Positions 28,046-48,479 of a stretch of 64,000 nt of DNA are shown one piece after another. The notes beneath the pieces are model-generated. The model worked only from the letters and a program-made list of their open reading frames with translations. It was not told the origin of the DNA and made no database searches. Source of the DNA: Hydrogenophilales bacterium 28-61-23 (GTDB lineage Bacteria > Pseudomonadota > Gammaproteobacteria > Burkholderiales > Thiobacillaceae). The position numbers and the translations under genes were made by a program. Position 1 is the stretch's first letter, and each line of letters begins with the position of its first letter. The stretch lies in assembly GCA_002281555.1 (NCBI GenBank), contig NCGJ01000005.1:1-64000 (forward strand), written 5' to 3'.

Positions 28046-29662
28046 ATGCAAATTACGCTTGTCCACCCCGCTGGCTTCAACTTCGTGCCCGGCCAACCGG
28101 ATTTCTCCGTGCTGGCCAACCGCATGCCACCCATCGGCATACTGCAATTGGCGTCCTGGCTGGAGAAACACGGCCACCCGACCCAGGTGCATGACTGCCT
28201 CGGGCCGCATGCGCCGCAGGGCATCGAGGCCAATGCCGACCACGTGCTGGCCACCGGGCCGGAACTGGTCGGGCTGTCCGCGACGACCTGCGGCTTCATG
28301 GAGGCAGTGGATATGGCGGCCTACATCAAGCTGAAGCGGCCGGAGATCATGATCGTGATCGGCAACGTGCATGCCTCTTCCATCGGCGCGCCGCTGCTGG
28401 AGCGTTTTCCAGTCATCGACGCCCTGTGCATCGGCGAAGGCGAAGGCGCCATGCTCGATCTGGCCGAGGGCAAGCCGCTGGCCGGCATCGACAATCTGAT
28501 CTTCCGCGAGGGCGAGCGCATCGTGGTCAACCCGCGCCGCAATCGCATCCTCGACCTGGACGAACTGCCCTTCCCGGCCTACGAAAAACTGGCCGGATTT
28601 CCACGCGACTATTACCTGCCGCTGTTCGCTTATGAACAACGCTGGGGCGCGACCATGATCACCTCGCGCGGCTGCCCCTACACCTGCTCGTTCTGCGACC
28701 GCACGGTGTTCGAGCGTCTGTACAAGGTGAACTCGGCCGAATACATCTACGCACACATGAAGTACCTGCGCGACCGGTTCGGCGTCCATCACGTCAATTT
28801 CTACGACGACCTGTTCACCGCCAGCAAGAAACGCGTATTCGCGCTGTGCCAACTGCTGATCGAGAAGCCGCTCGGCATGCACTTCAACTGCGCCATCCGC
28901 ACCGGCCACACTTCCGACGAAATGCTGGGCAAGATCAAGCAGGCCGGCGGCCTGATGGTGTCGATGGGCATCGAATCCGCCGACCCGGGCATGATGGAGC
29001 GGCACAAGGCCGGCGTCACGCTGGCCGAGGTGAAGAAGACGGTCGAGCAGATTCACGCCGCCGGACTGCGCGCCAAGGGCCTGTTCATTTTCGGCCTGCC
29101 CGGCGAGACGCCGGAAACGCTGAAGGCCACCAGCGACTTCATCCTGTCGCTCGACCTGGATGAAATGAACATGACCAAGTTCAGCCCGATGTACGGCGCG
29201 CCGATCTGGGACGAATGCGTCAGCGGCGAAGAGGGCGAGTTCAACGAGGACTGGCGCCTGATGAACTGTCTCAACTTCGTGTTTCTACCGAAAGGCTTCT
29301 CATCGCGGGAAGAAATGGATGCGCTGTACAACTGGCATATCCGCCGTTTCTACGACAGCAAGGCCTATCGCCGCCGCTTCGCCAAACGTCTGTGGCAACA
29401 CCGCTGGAGTCTCTGGCATCTGATCAGGAACCTGCCGCGGGTGATGCAGGCCGCGCGCTATTTCAGCGCCAACAAGGCGCAGCTCGACGCGCTGAAACGG
29501 GACTTTCCGTTGCACCCGGACCAGCCGACGCGGCTGCAACCCTTTCTCAGCCCCGAGTTGAAGGCCGACGCCATCGTGGCCATGTCGCCGGTGAAGCTCT
29601 CGCGTCGTCCGCGTCCCGAGGCCGAAGAATCAGAGCTCAAGGACTGTCAGTCGTGTGCATGA
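28046..29662 (+). CDS. B12-binding domain radical SAM enzyme
   Basis: A 538-residue protein with an N-terminal cobalamin-binding-type Rossmann domain (about 1-140), a radical SAM core with Cys210-x3-Cys214-x2-Cys217 (SRGCPYTCSFC), and a C-terminal extension (about 400-538). Class B radical SAM enzymes methylate unactivated carbon or rearrange rings. It opens the plus-strand arm of the pigment cluster, 98 bases before the halogenase. The substrate is not known; a modification of the polyene, its aryl head or its lipid anchor is inference. Confidence 0.85.
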   Translation: MQITLVHPAGFNFVPGQPDFSVLANRMPPIGILQLASWLEKHGHPTQVHDCLGPHAPQGIEANADHVLATGPELVGLSATTCGFMEAVDMAAYIKLKRPEIMIVIGNVHASSIGAPLLERFPVIDALCIGEGEGAMLDLAEGKPLAGIDNLIFREGERIVVNPRRNRILDLDELPFPAYEKLAGFPRDYYLPLFAYEQRWGATMITSRGCPYTCSFCDRTVFERLYKVNSAEYIYAHMKYLRDRFGVHHVNFYDDLFTASKKRVFALCQLLIEKPLGMHFNCAIRTGHTSDEMLGKIKQAGGLMVSMGIESADPGMMERHKAGVTLAEVKKTVEQIHAAGLRAKGLFIFGLPGETPETLKATSDFILSLDLDEMNMTKFSPMYGAPIWDECVSGEEGEFNEDWRLMNCLNFVFLPKGFSSREEMDALYNWHIRRFYDSKAYRRRFAKRLWQHRWSLWHLIRNLPRVMQAARYFSANKAQLDALKRDFPLHPDQPTRLQPFLSPELKADAIVAMSPVKLSRRPRPEAEESELKDCQSCA

Positions 29663-29760
29663 TCTAACTGCCAGTAGGGTTATTTGGGTAGCATTCGTTC
29701 GTTTTACACTCCAGGCAGGCAAGCCATTTTTCGACCCTGCCGCCAACCCGGGAGATAGTC

Positions 29761-31104
29761 GTGCCAAACGATTCCATGCAAACCAGCTCCACCGAACACC
29801 ACTGTGACGTTCTGGTGATCGGTGGCGGCCCGGCCGGCTCCACCGCCGCCACCTTGCTGGCGGAAAAGGGCCACCGGGTGACCTTGCTGGAAAAGGCGCG
29901 CCACCCCCGCTTCCATATCGGCGAATCGCTGTTGCCGGCCAATCTGCCGCTGTTGGACAAGCTGGGCATACGCGCCGAAGTGGAGGCCATCGGCATGGAG
30001 AAATGGGGCGCGGAATTCGTCTCGCCCTGGCACGACAACAGTCAGTCCTTCGAATTCGCCGATGCCTGGGACAAGTCCATGCCACACGCTTACCAGGTGC
30101 GCCGTTCCGAGTTCGACGAAATACTGATTCGCAATGCGGCGCGTAAAGGCGCCGAGGTCCTCGAAGGCTGCCGCGTGCGCGACGTCGAATTCCTGCCCAA
30201 CGATGCCGGCGCGATTGTCCGAGCAGAACATGACGATGGCCGTAGCGAAACCTGGCAATGCCGCTTCCTGATCGATGCTTCCGGACGCGACACCTTCCTC
30301 GGCAACCGCTTCAAAGCCAAGCAACGCAATCCCAAGCACAACAGCTCCTCGCTCTACGGCCACTTCAAGGGCGCCAAGCGGCACGAAGGCAAGAAGGAAG
30401 GCTACATCACCATTTTCTGGTTCGATCACGGCTGGTTCTGGTTCATTCCACTCGCCAACGGCATCACCAGCGTCGGGGCGGTCACCTGGCCCTACTTCAT
30501 GAAGACGCGCAAGAAGCCAATGCGCGAATTCTTCATGGATCTGATCGCCATGTGTCCGGCATTGAGCGAGCGACTGAAGGACGCGGAACTGGTCTCGGAG
30601 GTGGATGCCACCGGCAACTTCTCCTATGCCTGCGACCGCGCCCACGGCACCAACTACCTGCTGCTGGGCGATGCCTACGCCTTCATCGATCCGGTCTTCT
30701 CGTCCGGTGTCATGCTGGCCATGAACAGCGCCTTCGCCGGCGCCGACGCGGTCGACATCTGCCTGCGCCAACCGGACAAGGCGGCGCAAGCCCTGCGCCA
30801 ATTCGACCGGGTGATGAAGCATGGGCCGAAGGAGTTTTCCTGGTTCATCTACCGCGTCACCAACCCGACCATGCGCGACATGTTCATGTCGCCGCGCAAT
30901 GTTTTCCGGGTCAAGGAAGCGCTGCTGTCGGTGCTGGCCGGCGACATTTTCGGCAAGACCCCGATCTGGCGTGCGCTGTTGATATTCAAGGCGATCTATT
31001 ACCTCGCCTCGCTGGCCAATCTGAGGCGCACGCTGACGGCTTGGCGGCGGCGCAAGCTGAACATCCGCTATGTGGACGATGCGGAAGGAGCCGGCGCGCA
31101 ATGA
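29761..31104 (+). CDS. Flavin-dependent halogenase of the pigment cluster
   Basis: A 447-residue FAD enzyme starting at GTG after GGGAG. The FAD-binding GGGPAGS is at 21-27, GESLLP at 54-59, and KWGAEF at 81-86 places a Lys where phenolic halogenases have their catalytic Lys. The halogenase signature WxWxIP is present as WFWFIP (225-230). Xanthomonadin clusters contain a comparable enzyme and xanthomonadins are brominated, so halogenation of the aryl head is likely. A geranylgeranyl-reductase-like oxidoreductase is the alternative. Confidence 0.82.
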   Translation: MPNDSMQTSSTEHHCDVLVIGGGPAGSTAATLLAEKGHRVTLLEKARHPRFHIGESLLPANLPLLDKLGIRAEVEAIGMEKWGAEFVSPWHDNSQSFEFADAWDKSMPHAYQVRRSEFDEILIRNAARKGAEVLEGCRVRDVEFLPNDAGAIVRAEHDDGRSETWQCRFLIDASGRDTFLGNRFKAKQRNPKHNSSSLYGHFKGAKRHEGKKEGYITIFWFDHGWFWFIPLANGITSVGAVTWPYFMKTRKKPMREFFMDLIAMCPALSERLKDAELVSEVDATGNFSYACDRAHGTNYLLLGDAYAFIDPVFSSGVMLAMNSAFAGADAVDICLRQPDKAAQALRQFDRVMKHGPKEFSWFIYRVTNPTMRDMFMSPRNVFRVKEALLSVLAGDIFGKTPIWRALLIFKAIYYLASLANLRRTLTAWRRRKLNIRYVDDAEGAGAQ

Positions 31105-32177
31105 AGCCCGCCGGCGAAGGGATTCTGAGCCTGGAATACCTGCCCGCTTCCCGGCTTGGCCAACAGAGCCAACACTGGCGGGACAGCGTGCTTGGCGGCA
31201 TCTGCTTCTCCCGTCCGGCCATCCGTTTCGATGCGGCGGAACTGCCGTTACTGTCCGTCGACATGATCCCGCCGCCCGGCGGGGAAGCGATCTGCGAGGT
31301 TTGGCATAGCCGGGAAGCGCTGCAATCGGGCCGGCACGGCGCCATCCGCTACCGTCAGGGCGATGCCTTGCTGTTCGGCTGCCTGAGCCTGGAAGAATCG
31401 GCCGCCGAGGCGCCTCGGGATGCAGCATCGGTTGCGGCATCGGTTGCGTCTCCCCCGCTGCAGGCAACGACCGAAGCCGCCTACCGGAAAATCTTCGAAT
31501 TGCTCGAAGCGCGCGGCTACCCATCCGTTTTGCGTTTCTGGAATTACTTTCCCGCGATCAATCTGGAAAGCCATGCCATGGAGCGCTACCGCCAGTTCAA
31601 CGTCGGCCGCCAGGACGCCTTCATTTCGCGGGGGCGCTCGGTCATCGGCAATGTGCCGGCCGCCTGCGCGCTGGGCAGCGCCGCTGGCGGCCTGCACATC
31701 GCCTTCCTGGCTTCACGGGAGGTGGCGATCGGCATCGAAAACCCGCGCCAGGTCAGCGCTTACAACTATCCCAGCCAATACGGCCCGCGCAGCCCGTCGT
31801 TCTCGCGCGCCGGCCTGGTCAACCTGGCCGGGCATGACGTGCTGTTCATTTCCGGCACCGCCAGCATCGTCGGCCATCAAACCATGCACCCCGGCGACGT
31901 GGCGGCGCAGACGCGGGAATGTCTGCAAAACATCGCATTCGTCGTCGAGGAAGCCAACCGCATGTCCACCACTGCCGACTTCCGCCTCAACGATCTGGCC
32001 TACACAATCTATGTTCGCCACACCGAAGATATGGACACGGTACGCAGAGAAATCGAACGATTCATTGGCGCACCGACGCCCACCCTCTACATGCAAGCCG
32101 ATGTCTGCCGGGCCGATCTCCTGGTCGAAATCGAAGCCTCCGGCGGCCATGCCTCGAGCGCTTATGGCATCGCCTGA
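31101..32177 (+). CDS. Chorismatase/3-hydroxybenzoate synthase (XanB2/FkbO/Hyg5 family)
   Basis: The ATG overlaps the halogenase stop (ATGA); 358 residues. The C-terminal half has the YjgF/RidA-like pattern ISGTASIVGHQTMHPGDVAA and the IENPRQVSAYNYPSQYGPR stretch of pteridine-dependent-deoxygenase-like chorismatases. In Xanthomonas the homologue XanB2 makes 3- and 4-hydroxybenzoate from chorismate as the pigment starter. The N-terminal ~110 residues are less conserved, with an Ala/Ser/Glu linker near 110-125. Confidence 0.85.
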   Translation: MKPAGEGILSLEYLPASRLGQQSQHWRDSVLGGICFSRPAIRFDAAELPLLSVDMIPPPGGEAICEVWHSREALQSGRHGAIRYRQGDALLFGCLSLEESAAEAPRDAASVAASVASPPLQATTEAAYRKIFELLEARGYPSVLRFWNYFPAINLESHAMERYRQFNVGRQDAFISRGRSVIGNVPAACALGSAAGGLHIAFLASREVAIGIENPRQVSAYNYPSQYGPRSPSFSRAGLVNLAGHDVLFISGTASIVGHQTMHPGDVAAQTRECLQNIAFVVEEANRMSTTADFRLNDLAYTIYVRHTEDMDTVRREIERFIGAPTPTLYMQADVCRADLLVEIEASGGHASSAYGIA

Positions 32178-32196
32178 AAAAACCTGGATCCCCGCC

Positions 32197-33042
32197 ATGC
32201 CTGACTGCCGCCGCCTGACCCTATTCGTTGCCGTCCTGCTGCTCGCCAGCGCGCCGTTTGGCGTTGCCCGGGCGGTGGAAAAGCCACTCTGGGAACTCGG
32301 CGCCGGCCTCAGTGCCCTCTCCTTCCCCGACTATCGAGGTTCGGACGAAAGCCGTCTCTACGCCATACCGTTTCCCTACCTGATCTATCGCGGCGAATTC
32401 CTCAAGGCGGATCGGAACGGCATACGCGGCACCTTGCTCGACTCCGACCGGATCGAACTCAACATCAGCGTCGGCGCCTCGCTGCCAGTGAACAGCGAGG
32501 ACAGCAGCGCCCGCCGCGGCATGCCCGACCTGGATCCCAGCGTGGAAATCGGCCCTTCCCTGGACATCAACCTGTGGCGCGCGAACGATCGCCGCTACAA
32601 GCTGGACCTGCGTCTGCCGGTGCGTACCGCCATGACCGTCCGCAACGGCATGCACGACATCGGCTGGGTGTTTTCGCCGCGCATCAATCTGGACATCACC
32701 GATGTCGCCGGGCTGCCCAGCTGGAATCTGGGCGTACTGGCCGGCCCCATGTACGGCTCCGAGCGTAACCATGAGCACTTCTACTCGGTCGCCACCGCCT
32801 ACGCCACGGCGGCTCGCCCGGCCTTCGACGCCAAGGCCGGCTATGCCGGCGGCCAGTTTCTGCTTTCCTTGTCGAAGCGCTATCCGAAATACTGGATCGG
32901 CGCCTTCGCGCGCTGGGACACGCTCGACGGCGCCGCCTTCGCCGCCAGCCCACTGGTCAAGACCGATCATTACTTCGCCGCCGGCATCGGCATCGCATGG
33001 GTTCTGGGCGAGTCCGCCAGCCGGGTCGAGGCGGACGAGTGA
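32197..33042 (+). CDS. MipA/OmpV-family outer-membrane protein
   Basis: 281 residues from the ATG at 32197, with a signal peptide ending GVARAVEK. The mature part is a beta-barrel-like sequence (ELGAGLSALSFPDYRGSDES is the family opening) ending near KTDHYFAAGIGIAWVLGES. An in-frame ATG at 32164 is an alternative start. It probably helps place or pass the pigment at the outer membrane; this is inferred from context. Confidence 0.83.
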   Translation: MPDCRRLTLFVAVLLLASAPFGVARAVEKPLWELGAGLSALSFPDYRGSDESRLYAIPFPYLIYRGEFLKADRNGIRGTLLDSDRIELNISVGASLPVNSEDSSARRGMPDLDPSVEIGPSLDINLWRANDRRYKLDLRLPVRTAMTVRNGMHDIGWVFSPRINLDITDVAGLPSWNLGVLAGPMYGSERNHEHFYSVATAYATAARPAFDAKAGYAGGQFLLSLSKRYPKYWIGAFARWDTLDGAAFAASPLVKTDHYFAAGIGIAWVLGESASRVEADE

Positions 33043-33872
33043 TGCCTGCTGACATGAGAACGTCGCCTGACCAAGAGCCACGCGCCATGCACAGGCTCTA
33101 CGAATATGCCGCGCTGTGGTTCGGTCTGGGCCTGCTGGGCACGATTACGCTGACCTGGTCGCTGCTCTCTGTGCCCCTCTACCATCTGCTGCCGAAGCGC
33201 TGGGCCGTCCCGCTCGGGCGATTGGCCATCACCACCGGATTTCGCATCTACCTGGGCGCGCTTGCGCTGGTCGGCGCGGTCCGCTTCGATTTCCGCGCCC
33301 TCGATGGCCTGCGCGACCAAGGCCCGCTGGTGATCGCGCCCAATCACCCCTGCCTGCTGGACGCCCTGATGGTGATCTCGCGCCTGCCCAACCTCGCCTG
33401 CATCATGAAAGCGAGCATCGTCGACAACATCTTTCTTGGCGCGGGCGCGCGGCTGGCCGGCTACATCCGCAACGACGCGCAACTGAGCATGATCAAGCAA
33501 TCGGTGGCCGAGCTGAAAAACGGCAGATCCCTGCTGATCTTTCCGGAAGGCACCCGCACCACCCGCTGGCCGGTCAATACCTGCAAGGGAACCGCCGCGC
33601 TCATCGCCGCGCGCGCCAAAGTACCGATCCAGACGGTGTTCATCGAGACCGACTCGGCCTATCTCAGCAAGGGCTGGCCGCTGTTCCGCCGCCCAGAGAT
33701 GCCGATCACCTACCGCATCCGCCTCGGTCGCCGCTTCGACCCGCCGCGACGTGCCGCGGCTTTCACCCAGGAACTGGAGGCGTACTTCATCGACGCGCTG
33801 CGCGACGCCCCACATTTCCTGCCACCCGATACCGCGCAATCCGGGCAAACCGGCGCGGCGCTGACGACATGA
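33042..33872 (+). CDS. PlsC-type 1-acylglycerol-3-phosphate acyltransferase
   Basis: 276 residues; the ATG overlaps the upstream stop (TGATG). There are N-terminal hydrophobic helices, then the acyltransferase motifs NHPCLLDALM (HX4D) and FPEGTRTT. It could esterify the aryl polyene, or lipid carrying it, in the inner membrane. The C-terminal end overlaps the glycosyltransferase gene by four bases. Confidence 0.88.
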   Translation: MPADMRTSPDQEPRAMHRLYEYAALWFGLGLLGTITLTWSLLSVPLYHLLPKRWAVPLGRLAITTGFRIYLGALALVGAVRFDFRALDGLRDQGPLVIAPNHPCLLDALMVISRLPNLACIMKASIVDNIFLGAGARLAGYIRNDAQLSMIKQSVAELKNGRSLLIFPEGTRTTRWPVNTCKGTAALIAARAKVPIQTVFIETDSAYLSKGWPLFRRPEMPITYRIRLGRRFDPPRRAAAFTQELEAYFIDALRDAPHFLPPDTAQSGQTGAALTT

Positions 33873-34636
33873 TGGACGCCTCCAGTTCGCATCTGGTGCT
33901 CATCCCCAGCTACAACCCGGGGCCCAAGGTCTATGACACCGTGCTCGCCGCGCGTCGGCAGTGGACGCCGGTCTGGGTCGTGGTGGACGGCAGCACCGAC
34001 GATAGCGCGGCCGGACTTGAGCGGATGGCCGCAACCGACGCCGGCCTCAGAATCGTGGTGTTGCCCGTGAACGTCGGCAAGGGCGCGGCGGTCTTGCACG
34101 GTCTCGACCTCGCCGCGCAAGAAGGTTTCACCCACGCCCTGACCATGGACTCGGACGGCCAGCATCCGGCCGACCTGATCCCCGAATTCATGGCGGCCTC
34201 GATGGCCGCCCCGAGTTGCATGGTGCTGGGGGTACCGGTGTTCGACGCCAGCGCGCCGAACCTGCGCGTGCAGGGCCGCAAGTTATCCAACTGGTGGGCC
34301 AACGTGGAGACCCTCTGGATGGGCATCGGCGACTCCCTCTACGGCTTCCGCGTCTATCCCATCGAACCCCTGCGCCAAATCATGCAAAGCCAGCGCTGGA
34401 TGCGCCGCTTCGACTTCGACCCCGAGGCGGTGGTGCGCCTGTGCTGGCGCGGCGTGCGCCCGCTCAACCTGCCCGCGCCGGTGAAATACCTGCGCGCCGA
34501 CGAAGGCGGCGTGTCCCATTTCAACTACCTGCGCGACAACATCCTGCTGACCTGGATGCACAGCCGGTTGATGCTGGGGTTTGTGATTCGGCTGCCGTTG
34601 CTGGTGGCGCGGCGGATCGGGTTTTTCCGCTCTTAG
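33869..34636 (+). CDS. Family 2 glycosyltransferase
   Basis: 255 residues of GT-A fold with VVDGSTDDS near 38-46, GKGAAVLHGL and the metal-binding DSDGQHP. The C-terminal region is hydrophobic/basic. Aryl polyene clusters often carry a GT2 or a GT2-acyltransferase fusion used to attach a sugar to the polyene lipid. It is the last gene of the plus-strand arm. Confidence 0.88.
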   Translation: MMDASSSHLVLIPSYNPGPKVYDTVLAARRQWTPVWVVVDGSTDDSAAGLERMAATDAGLRIVVLPVNVGKGAAVLHGLDLAAQEGFTHALTMDSDGQHPADLIPEFMAASMAAPSCMVLGVPVFDASAPNLRVQGRKLSNWWANVETLWMGIGDSLYGFRVYPIEPLRQIMQSQRWMRRFDFDPEAVVRLCWRGVRPLNLPAPVKYLRADEGGVSHFNYLRDNILLTWMHSRLMLGFVIRLPLLVARRIGFFRS

Positions 34637-34697
34637 GGGTTAGCCGCGTTGGCCGGGCAGCGCATGATCTGTTGCCGCCGCCTTGAAAACACCCGTG

Positions 34698-34724: not shown

Positions 34725-34733
34725 TCGGCCCCT

Positions 34734-35702
34734 TCATCGCCCGTAAAGCTGCGCCAGCAGTTCCTGGAACGCGGACTGTTGCGCTCGCGGCGTGGCGCGG
34801 ACAATGCCCTCGCGCTGAAAAACCTCGATCAACTTGTGTGGCGTGACCCCCGATTCACCGACAATTTCGACGTGTCCGGCGGCAACTTCGATGTCAGTGG
34901 TTCGCGGTGCATGGGTGACTGGCGGAAAGCGCTGCTCCTGCACGCTGAAAATATAGTCGTCTTTGACGCATTGGCCGGCTTCGTTGCGACGCCGGCAAGT
35001 TCCGCGCTCGTCGGTGACCACCTTGAGATGGCTGCGCACTTGCGGCAGCAGATTGCCTGGAGACTGGATGAAATCGGACGCATGCGTTATCTCATACCAG
35101 TTATCGCCGCTGACCAGCCAGCAAACAAGATCATTCAGGCCGATCGTGACCAACCGAAGCGCTGGCGCCGCGCACATACGCGCGGCGGCGATGCCGGCAA
35201 ATGGCGCCGAGACGGTGACCAGGCGTAAGTCCATTTGCGTGTTGCGCAACGCTGCGGGATGGTTCTCGACGAGGGCTTTACGGGCAACGAGGCCGCCCAT
35301 GCTGTGGCCAATCACGGTGATTTCCGGTTTTTCCAGATGCTCTGCAAGCGTATCCACCGCCTTGGCCAATTGGCCGGAACTCAGCATCAGGCTATCGCGA
35401 TCGTCGTATTCGAAACAGGCGGATTGCTGACCATGAAAAGCGAGTACTTCCGCCAATGCCTGGAATCTCCCGGTGGAGCCGTTACAGCCATGCACCAGCA
35501 GGTTGATCGGCTGACTCGGATCGATTCGCAGCGTGCGCTCGGCGGCATCGTTGCATGGGCGCAGACCGGCAATGCTCACCGCCCGTTGCGCCGAAGGCAG
35601 GCGCCCTGGATCGGCGATCTCGCTCGCACCCGGCCGCGGCGTGGAAGAGCAGCCAGCCAGAGCGATGGCAAGCAGCAGTGAAAGAAAAAACGGTATCGAC
35701 AT
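34734..35702 (-). CDS. Lipase-like alpha/beta-hydrolase lipoprotein
   Basis: 322 residues from the ATG at 35702, which has AGGAG nine bases upstream. A lipoprotein signal ends LAGCSS. The alpha/beta-hydrolase nucleophile elbow is GHSMGG, with an oxyanion-side NLLVHGCNGS. It is the last gene of the minus-strand pigment operon, 35 bases after the antiporter. It may act on esterified pigment or lipids in the periplasm; substrate unknown. Confidence 0.8.
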   Translation of the reverse strand: MSIPFFLSLLLAIALAGCSSTPRPGASEIADPGRLPSAQRAVSIAGLRPCNDAAERTLRIDPSQPINLLVHGCNGSTGRFQALAEVLAFHGQQSACFEYDDRDSLMLSSGQLAKAVDTLAEHLEKPEITVIGHSMGGLVARKALVENHPAALRNTQMDLRLVTVSAPFAGIAAARMCAAPALRLVTIGLNDLVCWLVSGDNWYEITHASDFIQSPGNLLPQVRSHLKVVTDERGTCRRRNEAGQCVKDDYIFSVQEQRFPPVTHAPRTTDIEVAAGHVEIVGESGVTPHKLIEVFQREGIVRATPRAQQSAFQELLAQLYGR

Positions 35703-37054: not shown

Positions 37055-37770
37055 ATCATGCCTCCATTGACCGAGATGATCTGGCCGCTGATATAGCTGG
37101 CCTGTTCCGAGGCGAGAAAACCGACCAGGTCGGCGACTTCTTCCGGCTTGCCGGCCCGCTTCATCGGCACCATGCCGGCGATGGTTTTTTCGTCGAAAAC
37201 GCCTTCGATCATGCCGGTCTGAATGATGCCCGGCGCGACGGCGTTGACCGTGATGCCGCGACTGGCCAGTTCCAGCGAGAGCGACTTGGTGGCGGCGTGC
37301 AGCGCGCCCTTGGCGGCGGCATAGTTGACCTGGCCGCGGTTGCCGACCAGGCCGGCGATGGAGGTGATGTTGACGATGCGGCCCCAGCGGCTGCGCAGCA
37401 TCGGCAGGGTCAGCGGCTGGGTGACGTTGAAGAAGCCGTTGAGCGACACATCCAGCACCGTGTGCCATTGCATCGCGCTCATGCCGGGAAAGACTGCGTC
37501 GTCATGCACGCCGGCATTGTTGACCAGGATCTGTATCGGCGATTCTTCGACCAGGGCTTCCAGGATGGCGCGGCTGGATTCGGCATCGGTGACATCGAAG
37601 GCGATGGCTTCGGCCGCGCCGCCGGCGCCGCGAATTTCCGCCACCAGCGCCTCGGCCTTGGCCAGGTTCCGGTTGGCGTGCACGTAGACGTAACAGCCGT
37701 CGGCGGCCAGGCGCTGGCAGATCGCCGCGCCGATGCCGCCGCTGCCGCCAGTAACGAGGGCGCGTTTCAT
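37051..37770 (-). CDS. fabG: 3-oxoacyl-ACP reductase of the pigment cluster
   Basis: 239-residue short-chain dehydrogenase with NADPH loop GGSGGIG (8-14), Asn111, Ser137, Tyr150 and Lys154. It reduces the beta-keto intermediate in each elongation cycle and corresponds to ApeQ. It overlaps the antiporter start and lies eight bases after the dehydratase gene. Confidence 0.9.
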   Translation of the reverse strand: MKRALVTGGSGGIGAAICQRLAADGCYVYVHANRNLAKAEALVAEIRGAGGAAEAIAFDVTDAESSRAILEALVEESPIQILVNNAGVHDDAVFPGMSAMQWHTVLDVSLNGFFNVTQPLTLPMLRSRWGRIVNITSIAGLVGNRGQVNYAAAKGALHAATKSLSLELASRGITVNAVAPGIIQTGMIEGVFDEKTIAGMVPMKRAGKPEEVADLVGFLASEQASYISGQIISVNGGMI

Positions 37771-40449: not shown

Positions 40450-40602
40450 TTACTTGTTCTCATTGGCCTTGTCCTTGATGGCCCCTCCTGCCTGCTGAAT
40501 ATCCTGTCCCGCGCCTTCCATCGTGTTGCAGGCAGTAAATGTCGCGGTAGCGCCGACAATGGACAGCATGGTGAGCAGTGTCACGAAAATACGCTTGATC
40601 AT
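40450..40602 (-). CDS. Entericidin EcnA/B-family lipoprotein
   Basis: 50 residues from the ATG at 40602, with a GGGGG tract upstream. The lipoprotein signal ends ATFTAC, followed by NTMEGAGQDIQQAGGAIKD, the entericidin pattern. These small outer-membrane lipoproteins are often stress-induced. It sits inside the pigment cluster but is not coupled to its neighbours, so it may be separately transcribed. Confidence 0.88.
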   Translation of the reverse strand: MIKRIFVTLLTMLSIVGATATFTACNTMEGAGQDIQQAGGAIKDKANENK

Positions 40603-40743: not shown

Positions 40744-41571
40744 TCAAAGCGCGGAACGCAGGGGGATGGACTTGAGGCCGGCGGCGGCGGCGGCTTCCAG
40801 TACGCGCGGCAGAACAGACAGGATCACCGGCTGGCCGGCGGCGCTTCGCGCGGCGTTGCCGTCGTGCAGCAGCAGGATGTCGCCGGCGGCGAGGTTGCGG
40901 GTCAGACGCCGGGTCACGTCGTCGGCGTCGCGGTTGCGGGTGTCGTAACCGCGTCGCGTCCAGCTGACCAGATGCAGGCCGTGCCGGGCCAGGATCGGTT
41001 CCAGAAAGGGATTGCGCAGGCCGGCAGTGGGGCGGAAAAACAGCGGGCGCTGGCCGGTGATCGCGGCGAGGCTGTCCTGACCAAGCACCACCTCGCCGGC
41101 CATGCGGCGCGGCCCGAACAGGGAGAAATGATGGCGGTGGTGCTGGCTGTGGTTTTCCACAGCATGGCCGCGCCGCACGATCTCGCGGCATAGTTCGGGG
41201 TGGCGTTCGGCCTGGCTGCCGATGCAGAAGAAGCTGGCGCGGGCATCGTAGCGATCGAGGATGTCGAGCACTTGCGGCGTCACCGCCGGATCGGGGCCGT
41301 CGTCGATGGTGATGGCGATATGGCCTGGCGCCGCGGCGGCCGGCAGGCGCACCCAGTTCGGGCCGAGACACTTGCCGCGCGGCCAGAGGCCGGCGGCGCT
41401 AAGGAGCAGGTGATTCGCGGCCAGCGCGACCAGTGCCCAGAACCACCATTCCGGCCGCAGCGCGAGCAGAACCAGGACGCCGAGGTGCAGCGCGAACGTG
41501 GCCCGCAACAACGGCGTCGGCCGCCACTTGCGCGCGGGATGCGGCGGCGGCGTTATGGGCAAGTACGTCAT
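40744..41571 (-). CDS. Polysaccharide deacetylase (NodB-type)
   Basis: 275 residues from the ATG at 41571. N-terminal hydrophobic helices are followed by a NodB domain: TIDDGPDP with the first Asp pair, and the zinc-binding region of HAVENHSQHHRHHFSL. It could deacetylate a sugar attached to the lipid-polyene. A TTG two codons upstream is an alternative start. Confidence 0.85.
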   Translation of the reverse strand: MTYLPITPPPHPARKWRPTPLLRATFALHLGVLVLLALRPEWWFWALVALAANHLLLSAAGLWPRGKCLGPNWVRLPAAAAPGHIAITIDDGPDPAVTPQVLDILDRYDARASFFCIGSQAERHPELCREIVRRGHAVENHSQHHRHHFSLFGPRRMAGEVVLGQDSLAAITGQRPLFFRPTAGLRNPFLEPILARHGLHLVSWTRRGYDTRNRDADDVTRRLTRNLAAGDILLLHDGNAARSAAGQPVILSVLPRVLEAAAAAGLKSIPLRSAL

Positions 41572-41599: not shown

Positions 41600-43993
41600 C
41601 TAGCGCCGCGCCAGGATGGCGGAGAAGATCAGCGCGAGGATGGCGCCCGGCGCCACCGTGACGCCGATGGCGTTAAGCACCGGCACGCTGGAGAAACCCA
41701 TGATGCCGAAGCCGGCCACGGTCGTGCTGGTGGCCACCAGCAAGGAGGCCAGCGTGCGCGGCTGGATGTCGCCCGTGTTGGCGTCCCCACTCGCACCCTG
41801 GTCGAAGAACAGCGCGTAATTGGAGCCGACCGCAACCACCAGCAGCATGCCGACCAGATGCAGGATGGTGAGTTGCTGGCCCGCCAGAACCAGGCTGGCG
41901 ATGACCACGGCGACGGCGATCGCCAGCGGCGTGGCGATGCGCAGCACTCGCCGCGCGGAACGGGTGGTGGCGAACAGCAGGCCGAGAATGGCGGCCAGAC
42001 CTGCAAGCGACAGCAGAATCGCTTCGCGCAGATAGCTTTCGTAGAGGCGGTTGGATTCGCCCTTGAGATCGACGAAATAAACACCGGCCAGGCTGGTCTC
42101 GGCCAGCGCGGCGCGTACTTGCGCCGCGTCGATGACCTGCTGCTTGCCGGCCGCCGCGCGCAGCGGCAACAGGGCGGTCCAGTGCGCTTCGGTTTGCACC
42201 AGCAGCGCATCGACCCCCTGGGCCAGCGACGTGCCTTCGAGGTCTTGCCGGGTCAATGGCAGCCGGCCGCGCGATTTCTCCACGTCAGCGAAAAATGGCT
42301 CGAATCGATCCGCCCGCAGGGACAGATCGGCGATGGCGGTCTGGAAGCGCCGGCGCAGTTCGGCCTCGGGCGGCAGGCTGGCCAGACGCTGGCGCTGGCT
42401 GGCCTGGCTGGGCAGGTAGAAAGAAGGACTCTCGAAGCTGTCGATGACGCCCGCCGCCGCCAGCTTGCGCAGCGAGGTCGCGACGCGTTCGCTGGCGGCG
42501 AGCGCCGCCTCGCGTTCGGCGGCGGTCACCACGATCAGGTAACGCACATCGGGGGCGCCCAGGTCGGCGCGCATGGTCATATCGAGGGCCTGATCGGCGG
42601 CGGAAACCGGGCTCAATGCCGACAGCTCCTGGTTCCACATGCCGTCGCCCCGCGCTGCCAGCACGACGCAGGCGGCGCCGAACAGGATCAGCACCGGCGC
42701 GCGCAATCGGCCCGCCCAAGTCACCGCGACATGCAGCTTCTGGCCGAAAGCGGTGACATCGCGAATGCGCAGCTTGGCCGGCAGCAGATGCGGCAGCACA
42801 AAACGCGTCGTCAGCGCGGCGGTAACCAGCCCGGCGATGGAATACAGGCCCAGTTGGGCCAGGCCGGGGAAGCCGGAAAACAGCAGCGAGGCAAAGCCGA
42901 ACACCGAGGTCAGCACGCCGATCCGGATCGTCGGCCAGTAATTGGCCAGCCAGTGTTGTTCGCCCACCGCGCCATGCGCGCCCGCCTTGTCCCGCTCGGT
43001 CTGCATCAGCAGGTAGATGGAATAGTCCACCGCCTCGCCGATCAACGCGGTGCCGAAGCCCAGGGTGATGCCGTGGATCGTGCCGAAGCCGAGGCTGACC
43101 GCCGCCACGCCGGCCAGGGCACCGGACAGCACCGGCAGCAGGCCGAGCAGCAGCGCGGTGAAAGAGCGATAGATCAGCCAGAGCAGGCCGACGATGATCA
43201 GCGCGCCGATGCCGGACAGCTTGGCCACCTCGCCCTTGATGGTGGCGCGCGCCGCCACGGAAAAGGGGCCCGGGCCGGTCAGCGACAAATGCATGGTCGG
43301 ACTCGCCGTAGCCTGCGTTGTTGCCTGCGTTGTTGCCTCAAACGCGGCGCGGATCGCCGCGACGGTCTGCTCCTGACCGTCGGTGTCGGCGCCCTCGGCG
43401 CGGGTGCGGGCCAGCAGCAGCGCGCGCTGGCCGTCGCGCGAGACCCAGACGCCGTCGGCCATTTGCGGTTGGTGTTTGCCACCCGCGCCGCCCGCCATGG
43501 TGTCGAGCAGTCGCATGAATTCGCCGGTCGGGTCGCGCGGCAGCAGCGCCTTGCTGAACATGCCGGCGGAGGTGGCGAGAAGATCGATGCTGTCCTCGAC
43601 GCCGGCACGCAAGCCGTCCACCGTGAAGCGCTCGGCATTCACCGCCGGACTGAGCAGATAGCGGTTGTCGAGCAGAATCTGGCGGTCGCGTTCCAGGCCG
43701 AGGCTTTCGCCATTGGCGACATGCAGAAAGCGGGCATCGGCGCGCAGGCGAGCGGCCAAGTCGAGCGAGACGCGGGCGCGCGCGGCCTGATCGCCGCCGT
43801 CGATGCCGATCAGGATCAGGCGCGAGGCGATGCCGGATTTGAGTTGCTCGACCAGAAGTTGCTGTTCCTGGGTCGGCGTGCGCGGCAGAAAGGCGGACAG
43901 GTCGGCGGTGAAACTGGCCCGGCTCACCAGCCAGATACAGGCCGCCAGAAAAACCAGCCAGAGGGCGATGGCGGCACTGCCACGTCGACTCAT
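41600..43993 (-). CDS. MMPL-family exporter of the pigment cluster
   Basis: 797 residues with the 12-helix RND/MMPL architecture: a transmembrane helix at the N-terminus, a large periplasmic domain, helices 2-6 near 245-420, a second periplasmic domain and C-terminal helices. Homologues in aryl polyene clusters are thought to move the lipid-linked pigment to the outer membrane. It overlaps the LolA-like gene by four bases. Confidence 0.9.
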   Translation of the reverse strand: MSRRGSAAIALWLVFLAACIWLVSRASFTADLSAFLPRTPTQEQQLLVEQLKSGIASRLILIGIDGGDQAARARVSLDLAARLRADARFLHVANGESLGLERDRQILLDNRYLLSPAVNAERFTVDGLRAGVEDSIDLLATSAGMFSKALLPRDPTGEFMRLLDTMAGGAGGKHQPQMADGVWVSRDGQRALLLARTRAEGADTDGQEQTVAAIRAAFEATTQATTQATASPTMHLSLTGPGPFSVAARATIKGEVAKLSGIGALIIVGLLWLIYRSFTALLLGLLPVLSGALAGVAAVSLGFGTIHGITLGFGTALIGEAVDYSIYLLMQTERDKAGAHGAVGEQHWLANYWPTIRIGVLTSVFGFASLLFSGFPGLAQLGLYSIAGLVTAALTTRFVLPHLLPAKLRIRDVTAFGQKLHVAVTWAGRLRAPVLILFGAACVVLAARGDGMWNQELSALSPVSAADQALDMTMRADLGAPDVRYLIVVTAAEREAALAASERVATSLRKLAAAGVIDSFESPSFYLPSQASQRQRLASLPPEAELRRRFQTAIADLSLRADRFEPFFADVEKSRGRLPLTRQDLEGTSLAQGVDALLVQTEAHWTALLPLRAAAGKQQVIDAAQVRAALAETSLAGVYFVDLKGESNRLYESYLREAILLSLAGLAAILGLLFATTRSARRVLRIATPLAIAVAVVIASLVLAGQQLTILHLVGMLLVVAVGSNYALFFDQGASGDANTGDIQPRTLASLLVATSTTVAGFGIMGFSSVPVLNAIGVTVAPGAILALIFSAILARR

Positions 43994-44577
43994 GGCGTGG
44001 CGATCTTCCGGATAGTCATCACAGCGCGGTCGCCGTCGGCCAGCAGAATTTCCATCGTGCGCACTTCATCCCGCGCGCCATCCATCCGGATGCGGGCGAC
44101 GACGCCGCCGACCTTGGCATCGAGCGGAATCAGCACCAGGGTCCAACGTTCGCCGCCGCCGGTCAGGGTCAGGTGATAGACCCGTTCCAGCGCCTTGCGG
44201 TCGCCAGCCAGGGTGGCGCGTATGCTTTCGATCATGCCGGCGATTTCCGGGTATTTCTTCAGTTGCAGGACATGCTTCTGCCGCCCGCGCTCGACGCTGA
44301 GGACATCGCCGTCCAGCACCAGGCTTTCCTGCCTGGGCTTCAGAGTGCGTTTCTCCAGGCGATTGGGTGGCACGAACAGGAGTTCGCCGGACGACTCGAC
44401 CGGCTCGTCCAGGATGGAAATGTATTTTTTCTCGCTGAAGCTGGCCGCGCCGTGCTTGTTGTTGGCCAAGGCGTCCATGAGCTGGCCGATGCCGAATTGC
44501 GCGGCCTGGGCGGGCAGCGCCGCCAGCAGGAACAGGGCGACAAGCAGAAACAGGGCGACAAGCCGGGACTGGGTCAT
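43990..44577 (-). CDS. LolA-like outer-membrane lipid carrier of the pigment cluster
   Basis: 195 residues from the ATG at 44577. The signal peptide ends LAALPAQAAQ, and the mature part is a LolA/LolB-type beta fold (FSEKKYISILDEPVESSGEL). It likely receives the pigment-lipid from the MMPL protein. It is coupled to both neighbours by ATGA overlaps. Confidence 0.85.
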   Translation of the reverse strand: MTQSRLVALFLLVALFLLAALPAQAAQFGIGQLMDALANNKHGAASFSEKKYISILDEPVESSGELLFVPPNRLEKRTLKPRQESLVLDGDVLSVERGRQKHVLQLKKYPEIAGMIESIRATLAGDRKALERVYHLTLTGGGERWTLVLIPLDAKVGGVVARIRMDGARDEVRTMEILLADGDRAVMTIRKIATP

Positions 44578-45512
44578 GCCGGGTCGCGCCTGGCATTGCT
44601 CGACGGCCGCCAGAAATCGAAGAAGTTGAACCAGTTGAACGGCGTCGCGCGGCAGTGCCGCTCCAGGCAATCGGCATAGGCCGCAACGGCTTGCCGGATG
44701 GCGGCGTCCCGCTCCTTGCGCTCGATGTGCGTGAAATCGGCCAGCGGCTCGAAATGGATGGCGTAGCGGTTGCCGCCCAGATAGACGCCGCACATGAACA
44801 GCACCGGGCGCTTGAGGATGGCCGCCAGACGCATGGGGCCGAGCGGGATTTCCGCCGGCTCGCCGAGAAACGGCAGCGCCAGGGCGGGGTCGCTATCGAG
44901 CGTGCGATCTGCCAGCACCCCGAGCACCAAGCCCTCATCCAGCCGCGCCTGCACCCGCAGCATGGAATCGAGCTGGCCGAGCGGGATGATGTCTTGGATG
45001 GCGGCCGGATTGATGGCGGCAAGGGCGGCGTTGATCTTGCGGGCGTTTTCTTCGTACATGACCATGGCCACCCGCAAACCGGGCTGTTGCCGACCGACCG
45101 CGCGCACCACCTCGAAACTGCCCATGTGGGCGCCCATCAGAATGGCGCCCTGCCCGGAAGCCAGGACAGCCTTGATCAGCGCGTCGCCGTGCACCTCGAT
45201 ATCGAATAGATCGAAGCGGTCGTTGAGCAGGTAAATCCGGTCATGGATACAGGCGGCGAAGCTGTGGAAATGGCGAAAAATCTCGCCCAGGCGCGGCGGC
45301 CGTTGCAAAACGTGGCGCAGGTAGTTGCGCGAGGCATGACGCGCGTCGCGAGCGAAAAGCAGGAAATAAAGGCTGATGCCGAGCAGAACGACGCGGGACA
45401 AGCGCCGCCCGAGACGCAGCGAAATCCAGGTCATCAGCCGCAACATGCTGCTGTTGCTGCGTTCCCGCTGCCGCACCCATTCGGCTTGGTGCGAGAGATG
45501 GGATGCGCTCAC
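44574..45512 (-). CDS. LpxL/HtrB-type lysophospholipid acyltransferase
   Basis: 312 residues from a GTG that overlaps the dehydratase stop. An N-terminal membrane helix is followed by the HX4(D/E) motif GAHMGSFEVV and a distal LADRTLDSDPA/LPFLGEPAEIP. Homologues in APE clusters are proposed to attach the polyene acid to a lipid. Confidence 0.87.
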   Translation of the reverse strand: MSASHLSHQAEWVRQRERSNSSMLRLMTWISLRLGRRLSRVVLLGISLYFLLFARDARHASRNYLRHVLQRPPRLGEIFRHFHSFAACIHDRIYLLNDRFDLFDIEVHGDALIKAVLASGQGAILMGAHMGSFEVVRAVGRQQPGLRVAMVMYEENARKINAALAAINPAAIQDIIPLGQLDSMLRVQARLDEGLVLGVLADRTLDSDPALALPFLGEPAEIPLGPMRLAAILKRPVLFMCGVYLGGNRYAIHFEPLADFTHIERKERDAAIRQAVAAYADCLERHCRATPFNWFNFFDFWRPSSNARRDPA

Positions 45513-45835
45513 GCCGCGCCATCCTGTGGAGGCGTTACTGGGAAGGCGAAGATGCCGCTGGCCGCGACGCGCTCGCCGGCCAGAACTTCGAAGCGAAAAA
45601 CGCCCGCGGCCGTCTCGCTGAAATGCAAACGCAAAGATTCTCCCGGACTGACCGGACTCAAAAATTTTGCCGCTTTGATCTGGCCGCTGGCGGCATCCAA
45701 CCCATTCTGGCCGGCCAGAGCCTGGATGGCCTCATCCAGCAACAGCACGCCGGGCAGGATGGGACGTCCCGGGAAATGGCCGGCGTAGGCCGGGTGATCG
45801 GCGGCGACGGACAAGGCAAGGGACAGGTCTGTCAT
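45509..45835 (-). CDS. FabZ-like 3-hydroxyacyl-ACP dehydratase (small ApeI-type)
   Basis: 108-residue hot-dog protein with the clear FabA/FabZ signature HPAYAGHFPGRPILPGVLLL, including the catalytic His. Second dehydratase of the cluster. It overlaps the ligase stop by four bases. Confidence 0.88.
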   Translation of the reverse strand: MTDLSLALSVAADHPAYAGHFPGRPILPGVLLLDEAIQALAGQNGLDAASGQIKAAKFLSPVSPGESLRLHFSETAAGVFRFEVLAGERVAASGIFAFPVTPPQDGAA

Positions 45836-47220
45836 GCCGGGATGCGGTGCGTGGTTTGCGCCAGCAAGCTCGCCAGGAACGCCCGCGCCGCCTGACTGGG
45901 CAGCTTGCCGGTGGCGTTGCGCGGCAGCGCGTCGACGAACAGCAACGGCCGCGGCAGAAAAATCGGGTCGATGCGTTCGCGCAGGGCCTGCATCAGCGCG
46001 GCGGGCGTCAGTTCCGGCGCGACCACCAGCGCGGAAAGACGGCGGACGCTTTCCGGGGCGCCATCGCCGCCATCGTCCGGTTGCAGAAAGATGCCATCGA
46101 GCACGCCGGGGATCGCGTTGAGCTGTTGATTGAGATAGGCCAGCGAAGTGCGTTTGCCGGCGATATTGACCAGATCGGCATGGCGGCCGTGCAGCAAGAA
46201 ACGGGTCGGATTCGCGTCCACCAGCTCGATTTCGTCGTTGAGCCGCGTCGCCACCTCGATATGTCCGCCTTCGGCCCAGACCGCATCGCCCTCGCGCCGC
46301 AGCCGGACGCCCGCGAAGGTCTGCCAGGCCGCGCCGGCCGTGGTGCGGCGGGTGGCCAGTTGGCCGGTTTCGGTGCAGCCGTAGATTTCATGCAGGGGGC
46401 AGGAAAAGGCGGCTTCGGCGGCTGCGGCCAGGTCTCCCGACAGCGGCGCCGTGGCGGACAGCAGCAGGTCCGCGGCGGGTGGCGCGACCTGCCCAGCCAG
46501 CAGCGCACGCAGATGATAGGGTGTGGTGACCAGCACGCGCGGCCGCGGCAACGCATCCAGCGCCGCGCAGATGTCGGCCGGATAGAACGGGTGGCCGGTG
46601 TGCAGCGCGGCGCCGCTCTGCAGCGGCATCAACACGGTGGATTCGAGGCCGTACATATGTTGCGCCGGCACCGTGCCGACCACGGCATGCCGCGCGCCAA
46701 TGCCCAGAAGCGCCGCCTCGGCCCGCACATTGCGCACCAGATTGCCCCAACGCTTGGCGTGGGGCAGCGGCATGCCGGTGGAACCGGAGGTGAATACCTG
46801 GACGACGACCTGATCGCAGTCGATTTGCGGGATCGAGACAGCGTCCATCGACCACGCCATCGGTTCCGGGTAGCGAAACACCGGCAGATCGACTCCGCCT
46901 TTGTCCTGATCGGAAATGCAGAACAGATCGGGAGCGATGCGCCGCATCTGGCCGACCATCTCGGGGGTATGGGCGGACGGCAGCAGGCTGACCCGGCCGC
47001 TGACGATGCTGGCCATGAGCGCAACGGTAAAGCGGTAACGGTCGCCGCACAGATTCAGGACATGGCGCCCCGGCGGCAGTTGCTCGGCAACCTGTCCAAC
47101 CTCCTGTAGAAACTGCCTGGCGCCGACCGGCACGCCGCCGCGCCAGGCGATGACGGCATCGAGATCGCGATGGGCTATCAGTGGCAAGGTCGGTGGCAAG
47201 GTCAGCGGCGGAGTCGGCAT
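45832..47220 (-). CDS. Aryl/acyl-ACP ligase (XanA2/ApeH-like adenylate-forming enzyme)
   Basis: 462-residue ANL-superfamily protein with the P-loop-like FTSGSTGMPLPHAKRW, the aromatic-acid-type YGCTETGQ, and the C-terminal lysine region RNATGKLPSQA. In Xanthomonas, XanA2 loads 3-hydroxybenzoate onto the ACP XanC. With one ACP and a chorismatase present, this enzyme probably does the same here. Confidence 0.87.
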   Translation of the reverse strand: MPTPPLTLPPTLPLIAHRDLDAVIAWRGGVPVGARQFLQEVGQVAEQLPPGRHVLNLCGDRYRFTVALMASIVSGRVSLLPSAHTPEMVGQMRRIAPDLFCISDQDKGGVDLPVFRYPEPMAWSMDAVSIPQIDCDQVVVQVFTSGSTGMPLPHAKRWGNLVRNVRAEAALLGIGARHAVVGTVPAQHMYGLESTVLMPLQSGAALHTGHPFYPADICAALDALPRPRVLVTTPYHLRALLAGQVAPPAADLLLSATAPLSGDLAAAAEAAFSCPLHEIYGCTETGQLATRRTTAGAAWQTFAGVRLRREGDAVWAEGGHIEVATRLNDEIELVDANPTRFLLHGRHADLVNIAGKRTSLAYLNQQLNAIPGVLDGIFLQPDDGGDGAPESVRRLSALVVAPELTPAALMQALRERIDPIFLPRPLLFVDALPRNATGKLPSQAARAFLASLLAQTTHRIPA

Positions 47221-47241
47221 GGGCGGGCGGGACGCACCGGC

Positions 47242-47928
47242 CTAACGGCTGTCGGGCGAAGCGGCGGAATGCGCGCGCGGCGCGACGGGCGTTTTCCAGT
47301 AGGCGAGCATGCTGTCCTTGATGCTGTGCTTCTCCATATTTGGCAGCATGCGCAGGCGAACCAGATACTCGGCGACGAACATCAGCAGGATCAACGGGAA
47401 AGACAGGAAGTTGGCGAAGATCGACCAGACCTCGATGGGGGCGAACAGAAACAGCAGCGTGGAAGTCAGACTGACCGCCAGGAAAAACAGCGTCCAGGCC
47501 AACGTGACATGGCGGGTGTAGCGCGCCACGTCGGGCGCGACGGCGCCGTGGACGGCTTCGGCAAAGCGGGTGCAGAGCGGTTGTTTATCAGCCGACAGGG
47601 TGACGCCGAACACCGCCGCCAGCATCACGTTGGTGCCGGCATGCTGAAGAAAATAGACCCAGTTGAAATTCCGTTCCAGCGCGCCCCAGAACATCCACAG
47701 CAGCACACCGATGCCCGCGCATGCCAGCGACATGAGCAGACGCCGGGGCGAACGCCAGGCCAGCATCAGCAGGATGGCCAGGGATGGCGCCAGCGAAACG
47801 GCGACCCCCAGGGAGGGAAAGGTGGTTGCCGCCGAAGTGGCCGAACTGTAATGCGCCAGCACGGAATATCCGATCACACCGATTGCGATGGCCGCCCAGC
47901 GCAAGCCCTTGAGCAGGGTCGAATTCAC
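47242..47928 (-). CDS. COG4648-family membrane protein
   Basis: 228 residues with about six transmembrane segments. It is the COG4648-type integral membrane protein found in aryl polyene clusters, with the recurring GVTLSADKQPLCTRFAEAVH loop. The GTG start overlaps the ACP stop (GTGA). Its role in pigment assembly is not known. Confidence 0.85.
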   Translation of the reverse strand: MNSTLLKGLRWAAIAIGVIGYSVLAHYSSATSAATTFPSLGVAVSLAPSLAILLMLAWRSPRRLLMSLACAGIGVLLWMFWGALERNFNWVYFLQHAGTNVMLAAVFGVTLSADKQPLCTRFAEAVHGAVAPDVARYTRHVTLAWTLFFLAVSLTSTLLFLFAPIEVWSIFANFLSFPLILLMFVAEYLVRLRMLPNMEKHSIKDSMLAYWKTPVAPRAHSAASPDSR

Positions 47929-48194
47929 TTTACGCGGTGCTCCGCGATATGTTGGGTCAGGCTGGCGAGCGAACTGAAAATATGCACGTTGTCCGCGTTA
48001 TCGGCGCGCAACTGGAATCCGTAACGCTTGGACACGGCCAGCGCCACCTCCAGGATGTCGATCGAGTCGAGGCCGAGTCCCTCACCGTACAGGGGCGCGT
48101 CGGGCAGAATCTCATCCGGGCCAATGTCGAGATTGAGGGCGCTGACGACGAGCGCGGCGACTTCGTTTTGAAGTTCTTGCTTGGTAGCTGACAT
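47925..48194 (-). CDS. Acyl carrier protein of the pigment cluster
   Basis: 89 residues from the ATG at 48194, with the phosphopantetheine serine at 44 in GLDSIDILE. It is the only ACP in the cluster, as in the Xanthomonas xan set (XanC), unlike enterobacterial APE clusters that have two. A GTG four codons upstream is an alternative start. It is the first gene of the minus-strand operon. Confidence 0.9.
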   Translation of the reverse strand: MSATKQELQNEVAALVVSALNLDIGPDEILPDAPLYGEGLGLDSIDILEVALAVSKRYGFQLRADNADNVHIFSSLASLTQHIAEHRVK

Positions 48195-48479
48195 GATTGG
48201 TTTCACAAAAAACGGGAAGAACGGCCCGCCGAGGCCGGCCTGGGCGCGATTATATTGGGTAAGCGGCTCGACTTAGCGTCTATTCGGCACGCCACAGCAT
48301 CCGTGCCGAGCGGCGCCTCGCTGAACATGCCCGCAAAAGGGGCTTGCAGCTTTCCAAGTACGCCCCCCCGGTGCCGTGCAGGGCATCTGGATGGTATGGC
48401 GGATGTGGGCGGCAATCTTGGCGTTGAATCAACCGGAGCCGTCGCGATAGGCAAACCAGGCCATAACAGCCAGAATGCG
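48195..48479. other. Divergent spacer between the pigment operon and the Phd/PIN pair
   Basis: About 285 bases with no convincing gene. It holds the -10-like TATAAT for the ACP operon and a 10-bp palindrome AGGCCGGCCT near 48233-48242. The rest looks like non-coding sequence, though one strand stays open. Confidence 0.5.
48249..48254 (-). promoter_or_regulatory. Candidate -10 box for the ACP-led pigment operon
   Basis: A perfect TATAAT on the minus strand, 55 bases before the ACP ATG. No good -35 box lies at the right distance, so an activator may be needed. Confidence 0.4.

Follow-up and report, generated by a model that had tools for sequence, protein, structure and literature searches.

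The 64,000-nucleotide stretch of Hydrogenophilales bacterium 28-61-23 analysed here (contig NCGJ01000005.1 of assembly GCA_002281555.1, positions 1 to 64,000; hereafter the window) carries between positions 28046 and 48206 a two-arm convergent aryl-polyene pigment locus of the xanthomonadin/arcuflavin type, which reaches from the ATG start codon of a gene for a B12-binding radical S-adenosylmethionine (SAM) protein to the GTG start codon of an acyl carrier protein (ACP) gene. Genes were called from the list of open reading frames (ORFs) and from Pfam and NCBIfam profile scans. The plus-strand arm encodes, in this order, the radical SAM protein (rSAM), an FAD-dependent halogenase, a chorismatase, a MipA-type outer membrane protein, an LPLAT acyltransferase and a family 2 glycosyltransferase (GT2). 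The minus-strand arm, read from position 48206 downwards, encodes the ACP, a membrane protein, an AMP-ligase, a dehydratase, an LpxL-type acyltransferase, a LolA-like carrier and an MMPL exporter, followed by a polysaccharide deacetylase, an entericidin-like peptide, a ketosynthase (KS), a chain-length-factor protein (CLF), a second dehydratase, a ketoreductase (KR), an antiporter and an alpha/beta hydrolase. The locus thereby combines the features of the aryl-polyene class: a XanB2/ArcB-type chorismatase, a KS with CLF, KR, dehydratases and ACP, an aryl AMP-ligase, and genes for export and lipid attachment.

The genes for the aryl head and the polyene chain are distributed over both arms. The chorismatase (31101..32177, plus strand), a 3-/4-hydroxybenzoate synthase of the XanB2/ArcB type, matched PF21168 above its cut-off (E-value 3.5e-38) and is the sole match to this family in the genome; it also matched TIGR04444 at 1.9e-69, below the cut-off of that model (234 versus 325 bits). 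The ligase and the genes for the chain are located on the minus strand. The ArcK-like KS (39048..40244) matched the PRK09185-type model NF006618 at 1.6e-166, above cut-off, and possesses the Cys-His-His motifs at residues 162, 293 and 326. It is followed by the short, KS-like, ArcJ-like CLF (38231..39046; PF13723 Ketoacyl-synt_2, 1.4e-26), the ArcI-like second dehydratase (37779..38240) and the ArcH-like KR (37051..37770; KR 7.8e-54, FabG model NF004200 9.1e-110, above cut-off). The second dehydratase matched no Pfam or NCBIfam model and was assigned from its position between CLF and KR, which is the place of arcI in the arc cluster, and from related loci, where homologues occupy the corresponding position. 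At the far end of the arm are found the ArcV-like ACP (47925..48206; PF00550 1.7e-7, NF006617 1.9e-40, above cut-off), an ArcU-like membrane protein (47242..47928), which has no Pfam or NCBIfam match but whose homologues in related loci likewise lie between ligase and ACP, the ArcT-like aryl AMP-ligase (45832..47220; PF00501 AMP-binding, 1.1e-19), assigned at family level, and the ArcS-like, FabA-like dehydratase (45509..45835; PF07977 3.1e-9, above cut-off; ApeI-like PF22818 1.7e-5, below cut-off).

The remaining genes are mostly of the export and attachment type. On the plus strand these comprise the ArcC-like MipA protein (32197..33042; PF06629, 6e-42), the ArcD-like LPLAT acyltransferase (33087..33872; PF01553, 6e-15) and the ArcE-like GT2 (33869..34636; PF00535, 2.7e-15). 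On the minus strand they comprise the ArcR-like LpxL-type acyltransferase (44574..45512; PF03279 Lip_A_acyltrans, 1.9e-11), the ArcQ-like LolA carrier (43990..44577; PF19574 LolA_3, 5.8e-20), the ArcP-like MMPL exporter (41600..43993; PF03176, 9.5e-20) and the ArcN-like polysaccharide deacetylase (40744..41571; PF01522, 1.1e-26). The one wide gap in the minus arm holds an entericidin-like small lipoprotein (40450..40602; PF08085, 2.1e-7); the arm ends with an ArcG-like antiporter of the Na/H exchanger family, whose start codon is uncertain (35738..37050; PF00999, 6.9e-49), and an alpha/beta-hydrolase lipoprotein with a lipobox-like N-terminus (34734..35702; PF12146, 1.7e-8). Start and stop codons overlap between halogenase and chorismatase, between LPLAT acyltransferase and GT2, between CLF and second dehydratase, along the whole run from MMPL exporter through LolA, LpxL-type acyltransferase and FabA-like dehydratase to the ligase, and between membrane protein and ACP, which suggests co-transcription. 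The first-pass annotation had listed the chorismatase, the ACP, the ligase, KS plus CLF, two dehydratases, the KR and the LpxL-type acyltransferase, LolA-like and MMPL genes, and had placed a halogenase and a B12 radical SAM enzyme on the plus arm; each of these parts was found, by profile matches or, for the second dehydratase, by position and homologues. The MipA, LPLAT, GT2, polysaccharide deacetylase, antiporter, alpha/beta-hydrolase lipoprotein and entericidin-like genes are parts that it had left unnamed.

Compared with the arc clusters of Azoarcus sp. BH72, which direct the synthesis of arcuflavin (PMC3949708), the window matches nearly gene for gene. Common to both are the ArcA halogenase, the ArcB chorismatase, MipA, an acyltransferase, a glycosyltransferase, the antiporter, KR, dehydratase and KS/CLF, as well as the polysaccharide deacetylase, the exporter, LolA, a second acyltransferase, a dehydratase, the ligase and the ACP. 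The arc genes of Azoarcus occupy two unlinked loci and are accompanied by dialkylresorcinol genes, whereas the window holds a single locus, in which counterparts of arcF, arcL, arcM and arcO were not seen; conversely, the window adds the rSAM gene and the alpha/beta hydrolase, the latter not listed in Table 1 of PMC3949708. The aryl-polyene clusters of Xanthomonas (xan) and Lysobacter are described as having, like the window, a type II polyketide synthase (PKS) with an unusual CLF and a XanB2-type chorismatase (PMC3691225); a halogenase is present in Xanthomonas, as in the window, and absent from Lysobacter. The likeness to Xanthomonas is taken from this description, and the term 'radical SAM' does not occur in the main text of that paper.

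The closest full locus found is that of the gammaproteobacterium Lamprocystis purpurea DSM 4197 (L072, L151-L153), in which the genes from ACP to halogenase are ordered and oriented as in the window, with identities of 61-83% (halogenase 82%, antiporter 83%, KS 77%). In this locus the rSAM gene is located at the other end, beside the ACP, a DarB gene is found nearby, and no match was obtained for the KR or the alpha/beta hydrolase of the window. Among 61 genomes of relatives, searched at E<=1e-60, the halogenase was present in five and rSAM in two, the window's own genome being counted in both; at the same threshold, 22 other genomes of the same genus, some of them incomplete, gave no halogenase or rSAM match, and G033, a genome from another genus of the family, has a halogenase with 68% identity. 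This patchy occurrence among relatives, together with the collinearity between beta- and gammaproteobacteria, indicates horizontal transfer, by which the locus has likely spread. The G+C content of the cluster (0.649, versus 0.588 to its left and 0.613 to its right) is a weak sign of transfer, as values of 0.63-0.64 also occur elsewhere in the genome.

The rSAM protein (28046..29662, plus strand; 538 aa) consists of a B12-binding domain, which scores above its Pfam cut-off (4.7e-13), followed by a CxxxCxxC radical SAM domain (Radical_SAM, 1.4e-22) with the motif CPYTCSFC, the three cysteines of which are identical in 77 of 77 aligned rSAM rows. In the rSAM tree, from which the short rows L078, L084, L094 and L098 were left out, the window protein pairs with that of a Parasulfuritortus metagenome-assembled genome (MAG) at 85% identity (SH-aLRT 92, below the starred level of 95); that rSAM is closest to a protein from a Thiobacillaceae MAG agrees with the betaproteobacterial host proposed by the first-pass annotation. 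The protein passes no NCBIfam cut-off, its scores to the listed methylase models all being below them. An AlphaFold2 (AF2) model has as fold neighbours AprD4, TsrM, MgmA, OxsB, TokK and CysS, several of which are C-methylases, at 16-21% identity; in all six, as in rSAM, the radical SAM domain comes after a B12-binding-like one.

The domain pair and the fold neighbours allow for methylation or for other radical chemistry, and our best guess is that rSAM would C-methylate the pigment. Two features of the model speak against this: its best fold match (TMq 0.60) is AprD4, a diol-dehydratase and not a methylase, and its mean pLDDT is only 68.8, falling below 50 around the SAM cysteines. The match to AprD4, and the fact that no listed radical SAM NCBIfam cut-off is reached, would suit an enzyme that belongs to the pigment pathway and catalyses something other than methylation, for example a radical dehydration, an isomerization or an oxygen-free oxidation of the polyene or the head group. 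This seems unlikely to us, as methylation is reported to be what B12-dependent radical SAM enzymes most commonly catalyse (PMC11659888) and the score of the B12-binding domain exceeds its Pfam cut-off.

To what extent rSAM is tied to polyene genes was assessed in the best 80 of 111 relatives from a genome scan, a locus being called linked when one or more of 14 polyene genes were present at >=35% identity in the available locus DNA. By this definition rSAM is linked in 57 of the 80 loci, 54 of them by at least two genes and three by the halogenase alone. Three arrangements were observed: rSAM directly before the halogenase (44 loci), after GT2 (seven loci, from Gallionellaceae and kin) and beside the ACP (six loci, from Azoarcus, strain MS502-43 and Chromatiaceae). 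In many loci a frame of approximately 200 aa lies between rSAM and halogenase; the one copy scanned had no Pfam match. In L019, L021, L022 and L033 a further KS gene, accompanied by an ACP gene in L021 and L033, lies immediately upstream of rSAM, and these may be darJ/darC-like (names from PMC3949708).

Co-occurrence of the two genes extends beyond such loci. In an order-level sample of 300 genomes (E<=1e-100) rSAM was found in five and the halogenase in 34, own genome included, and all five rSAM genomes have both. In a sample of 199 genomes from an rSAM-rich family, rSAM was found in 33, the halogenase in 34 and both in 23; the halogenase is thus present in 23 of the 33 rSAM genomes versus 11 of the 166 others (Fisher 1.8e-14) and, counted by genus, in 10 of 14 genera with rSAM versus six of 54 without (Fisher 1.8e-5), both values being uncorrected for relatedness. 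The 23 genomes with both genes have them on one contig in 14 cases (seven less than 1 kb apart, four at 21-26 kb, three more than 700 kb apart along the contig, or, should these contigs be circular, at least approximately 400 kb) and on different contigs in nine. As the two genes co-occur even when far apart or on different contigs, their tie goes beyond linkage.

Several findings weigh against a role of rSAM in pigment synthesis alone. No polyene genes were found in 23 of the 80 loci, although some of these contigs are short (e.g. L084, L094). The polyene KS was searched (E<=1e-60) in 21 genomes, two of which hold linked loci and which do not include those of L027, L079, L082, L089 and L033; among the 19 genomes of unlinked loci, nine have the KS elsewhere at 63-72% identity, one has a weak match (45%) and nine have none. 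Five of five Holophagaceae rSAM genomes searched, all of them among these last nine, gave no match to the polyene KS or the chorismatase, and in this family, where neighbours were labelled by a Pfam run on one member per group, a queC-like gene precedes rSAM in L086, L087, L088 and L092. The locus DNA of these four holds no polyene genes; a queF-like gene follows rSAM in L088, L089 and L092, an HPPK-like gene is also found near it in L088 and L092, and L093 has neither a queC- nor a queF-like neighbour. Within the 199-genome sample, 10 of the 33 rSAM genomes lack a halogenase match, and 11 of its 34 halogenase genomes lack an rSAM match (E<=1e-100); for the 300-genome order sample the latter figure is 29 of 34.

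From the many halogenase genomes without rSAM it follows that rSAM is not a core gene of these clusters, and its presence in Holophagaceae and others without polyene genes makes it probable that the enzyme, or its family, can also work outside pigment making. The same genomes are what an ordinary arc/xan locus would lead one to expect if rSAM were an adjacent passenger of gene transfer that acts in another process: Holophagaceae, an Akkermansiaceae MAG and some betaproteobacterial genomes have rSAM and no polyene KS or chorismatase match. We regard such passive carriage as a doubtful explanation, though the most probable of the alternatives to a tailoring role, given that rSAM is linked in three different kinds of arrangement and co-occurs with the halogenase when far apart or on different contigs.

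Arcuflavin is a non-brominated heptaene derived from 3-hydroxybenzoate, with one methionine-derived methyl group, joined to a dialkylresorcinol (PMC3949708). DarB-type ketoacyl-ACP synthase III (KASIII) has no match at E<=1e-30 in the window's genome, which is 98% complete, so that a comparable dialkylresorcinol ester is unlikely here; of 47 genomes in which DarB was sought, 26 possess it. Three of the 47 lack an rSAM match, and G060 and G364, which gave the same place, were counted once, so that DarB is present in 25 of 43 distinct rSAM genomes; given this figure and the lack of a DarB match in the window's genome, an rSAM that serves only the dialkylresorcinol part was rejected. By Pfam, the cluster contains no other methyltransferase, and the UbiE-like methyltransferase of sister clusters has no match at E<=1e-25 in the genome, whose other methyltransferases were not surveyed; both negatives favour rSAM as the pigment C-methylase. 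In Lysobacter, the methylation and release steps of the pigment had no assigned enzyme (PMC3691225). That rSAM plainly replaces a SAM methyltransferase was likewise rejected: six loci, and L012 as well, carry rSAM alongside the UbiE-like methyltransferase, and the six also count against C-methylation by rSAM.

The ArcA-like halogenase (29776..31104, plus strand; Trp_halogenase, 1.9e-31) shows the features of FAD-dependent halogenases, namely GxGxxG, WxWxIP and an aligned Lys. Lys76, the W, W, I and P of WxWxIP and the D, P, S and G of FIDPxFSSG are identical in 59 of 59 aligned rows, a set in which some rows are one locus fetched twice and from which rows of fewer than 380 positions or more than 99% identical to the window were excluded; the aligned Lys is the presumed catalytic residue. 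Halogenases make up seven of the top eight matches in the PDB (171-203 bits), the eighth being 3nix, named a flavoprotein/dehydrogenase (172 bits), and digeranylgeranyl reductase scored only 48 bits. Of the NCBIfam models, CmlS scored best (211 bits), followed by QhpG (175) and geranylgeranyl reductase (134), none of the three reaching its cut-off (900 for CmlS); LodB scored 132 bits. By profile and PDB scores, a geranylgeranyl reductase is thus disfavoured.

Judged by these motifs, the ArcA-like protein should halogenate. The QhpG and LodB scores, the unreached CmlS cut-off and the non-brominated state of arcuflavin despite arcA (PMC3949708) would agree with a hydroxylase or maturase instead, which we consider the least probable of the alternatives in view of the invariant motif residues, the CmlS model being the best profile and the PDB halogenases. 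A halogenase gene is in any case no guarantee of a halogenated pigment, since the BH72 arc cluster includes arcA and arcuflavin is non-brominated. Of the first-pass prediction of a halogenated, possibly C-methylated aryl polyene, the class of the cluster is supported, whereas halogenation and C-methylation of the product are putative. Such clusters normally include a halogenase, so that its presence is no novelty; the one unusual gene is that of the B12 radical SAM protein.

The pathway we propose assigns to each protein a step by homology. The chorismatase would make 3-hydroxybenzoate, which the ligase would load onto the ACP, and KS plus CLF, the KR and the two dehydratases would build the conjugated polyene. 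Given a supply of halide, the halogenase may brominate or chlorinate the aryl head, and the GT2, the acyltransferases, the deacetylase, LolA, MMPL and MipA would serve attachment to a lipid-like carrier and placement in the outer membrane. Gene content and order, conserved motifs, linkage and co-occurrence are observed directly, whereas every chemical step is inferred; most tentative are the reaction and substrate of rSAM, which might C-methylate the aryl or the polyene part. With roughly even confidence, we read the locus as a horizontally spread arc/xan-type pigment locus with rSAM as an optional tailoring enzyme, most likely a methylcobalamin-dependent C-methyltransferase. It is possible, at somewhat less than even confidence, that rSAM founds an undescribed family of B12-dependent radical enzymes for the C-methylation, or some other radical tailoring, of aryl polyenes made by type II PKSs, with as outcome an unseen pigment subclass that spread by transfer among beta- and gammaproteobacteria, with another use in Holophagaceae.

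The type of pigment, a yellow, possibly halogenated aryl polyene of the membrane, being already known, the interest of the locus lies not in the halogenase but in this recurrent, apparently unstudied partner: pigments of the xanthomonadin type shield cells against light and oxidants, and for a tailoring step in their synthesis the recurrently linked rSAM gene offers a concrete candidate. No paper joining rSAM with these pigments was found in the searches made of the open-licence part of PMC, although the arcuflavin supplementary tables for Dechloromonas and Sideroxydans may list the gene; the passages seen in papers containing 'radical SAM' plus 'xanthomonadin' or 'aryl polyene' concern ribosomally synthesized and post-translationally modified peptides (RiPPs), a Xanthomonas motility region, reference lists and a count of tailoring enzymes.

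The locus is flanked on the left by hscB, hscA, fdx and an IscX-like gene and on the right by uvrA and topoisomerase genes. At gathering scores Rfam found only four tRNAs in the window, and hence no cobalamin riboswitch, and a promoter scan returned 0 sites versus 3.5 expected. A DUF3050 gene (25130-25993, plus strand) lies within the isc operon between hscA and fdx, and an ORF with a PEP-CTERM motif (27111-28022, minus strand) directly borders the rSAM gene on its left side, in the opposite orientation. To the right, a PIN-domain gene (50930-51612, minus strand) adjoins a small ORF, with which it possibly forms a toxin-antitoxin pair. Elsewhere in the genome (L118, 745-2790), a KASIII gene adjoins an NAD-dependent epimerase-like ORF, a pair that we take to resemble an Ole-type pair.

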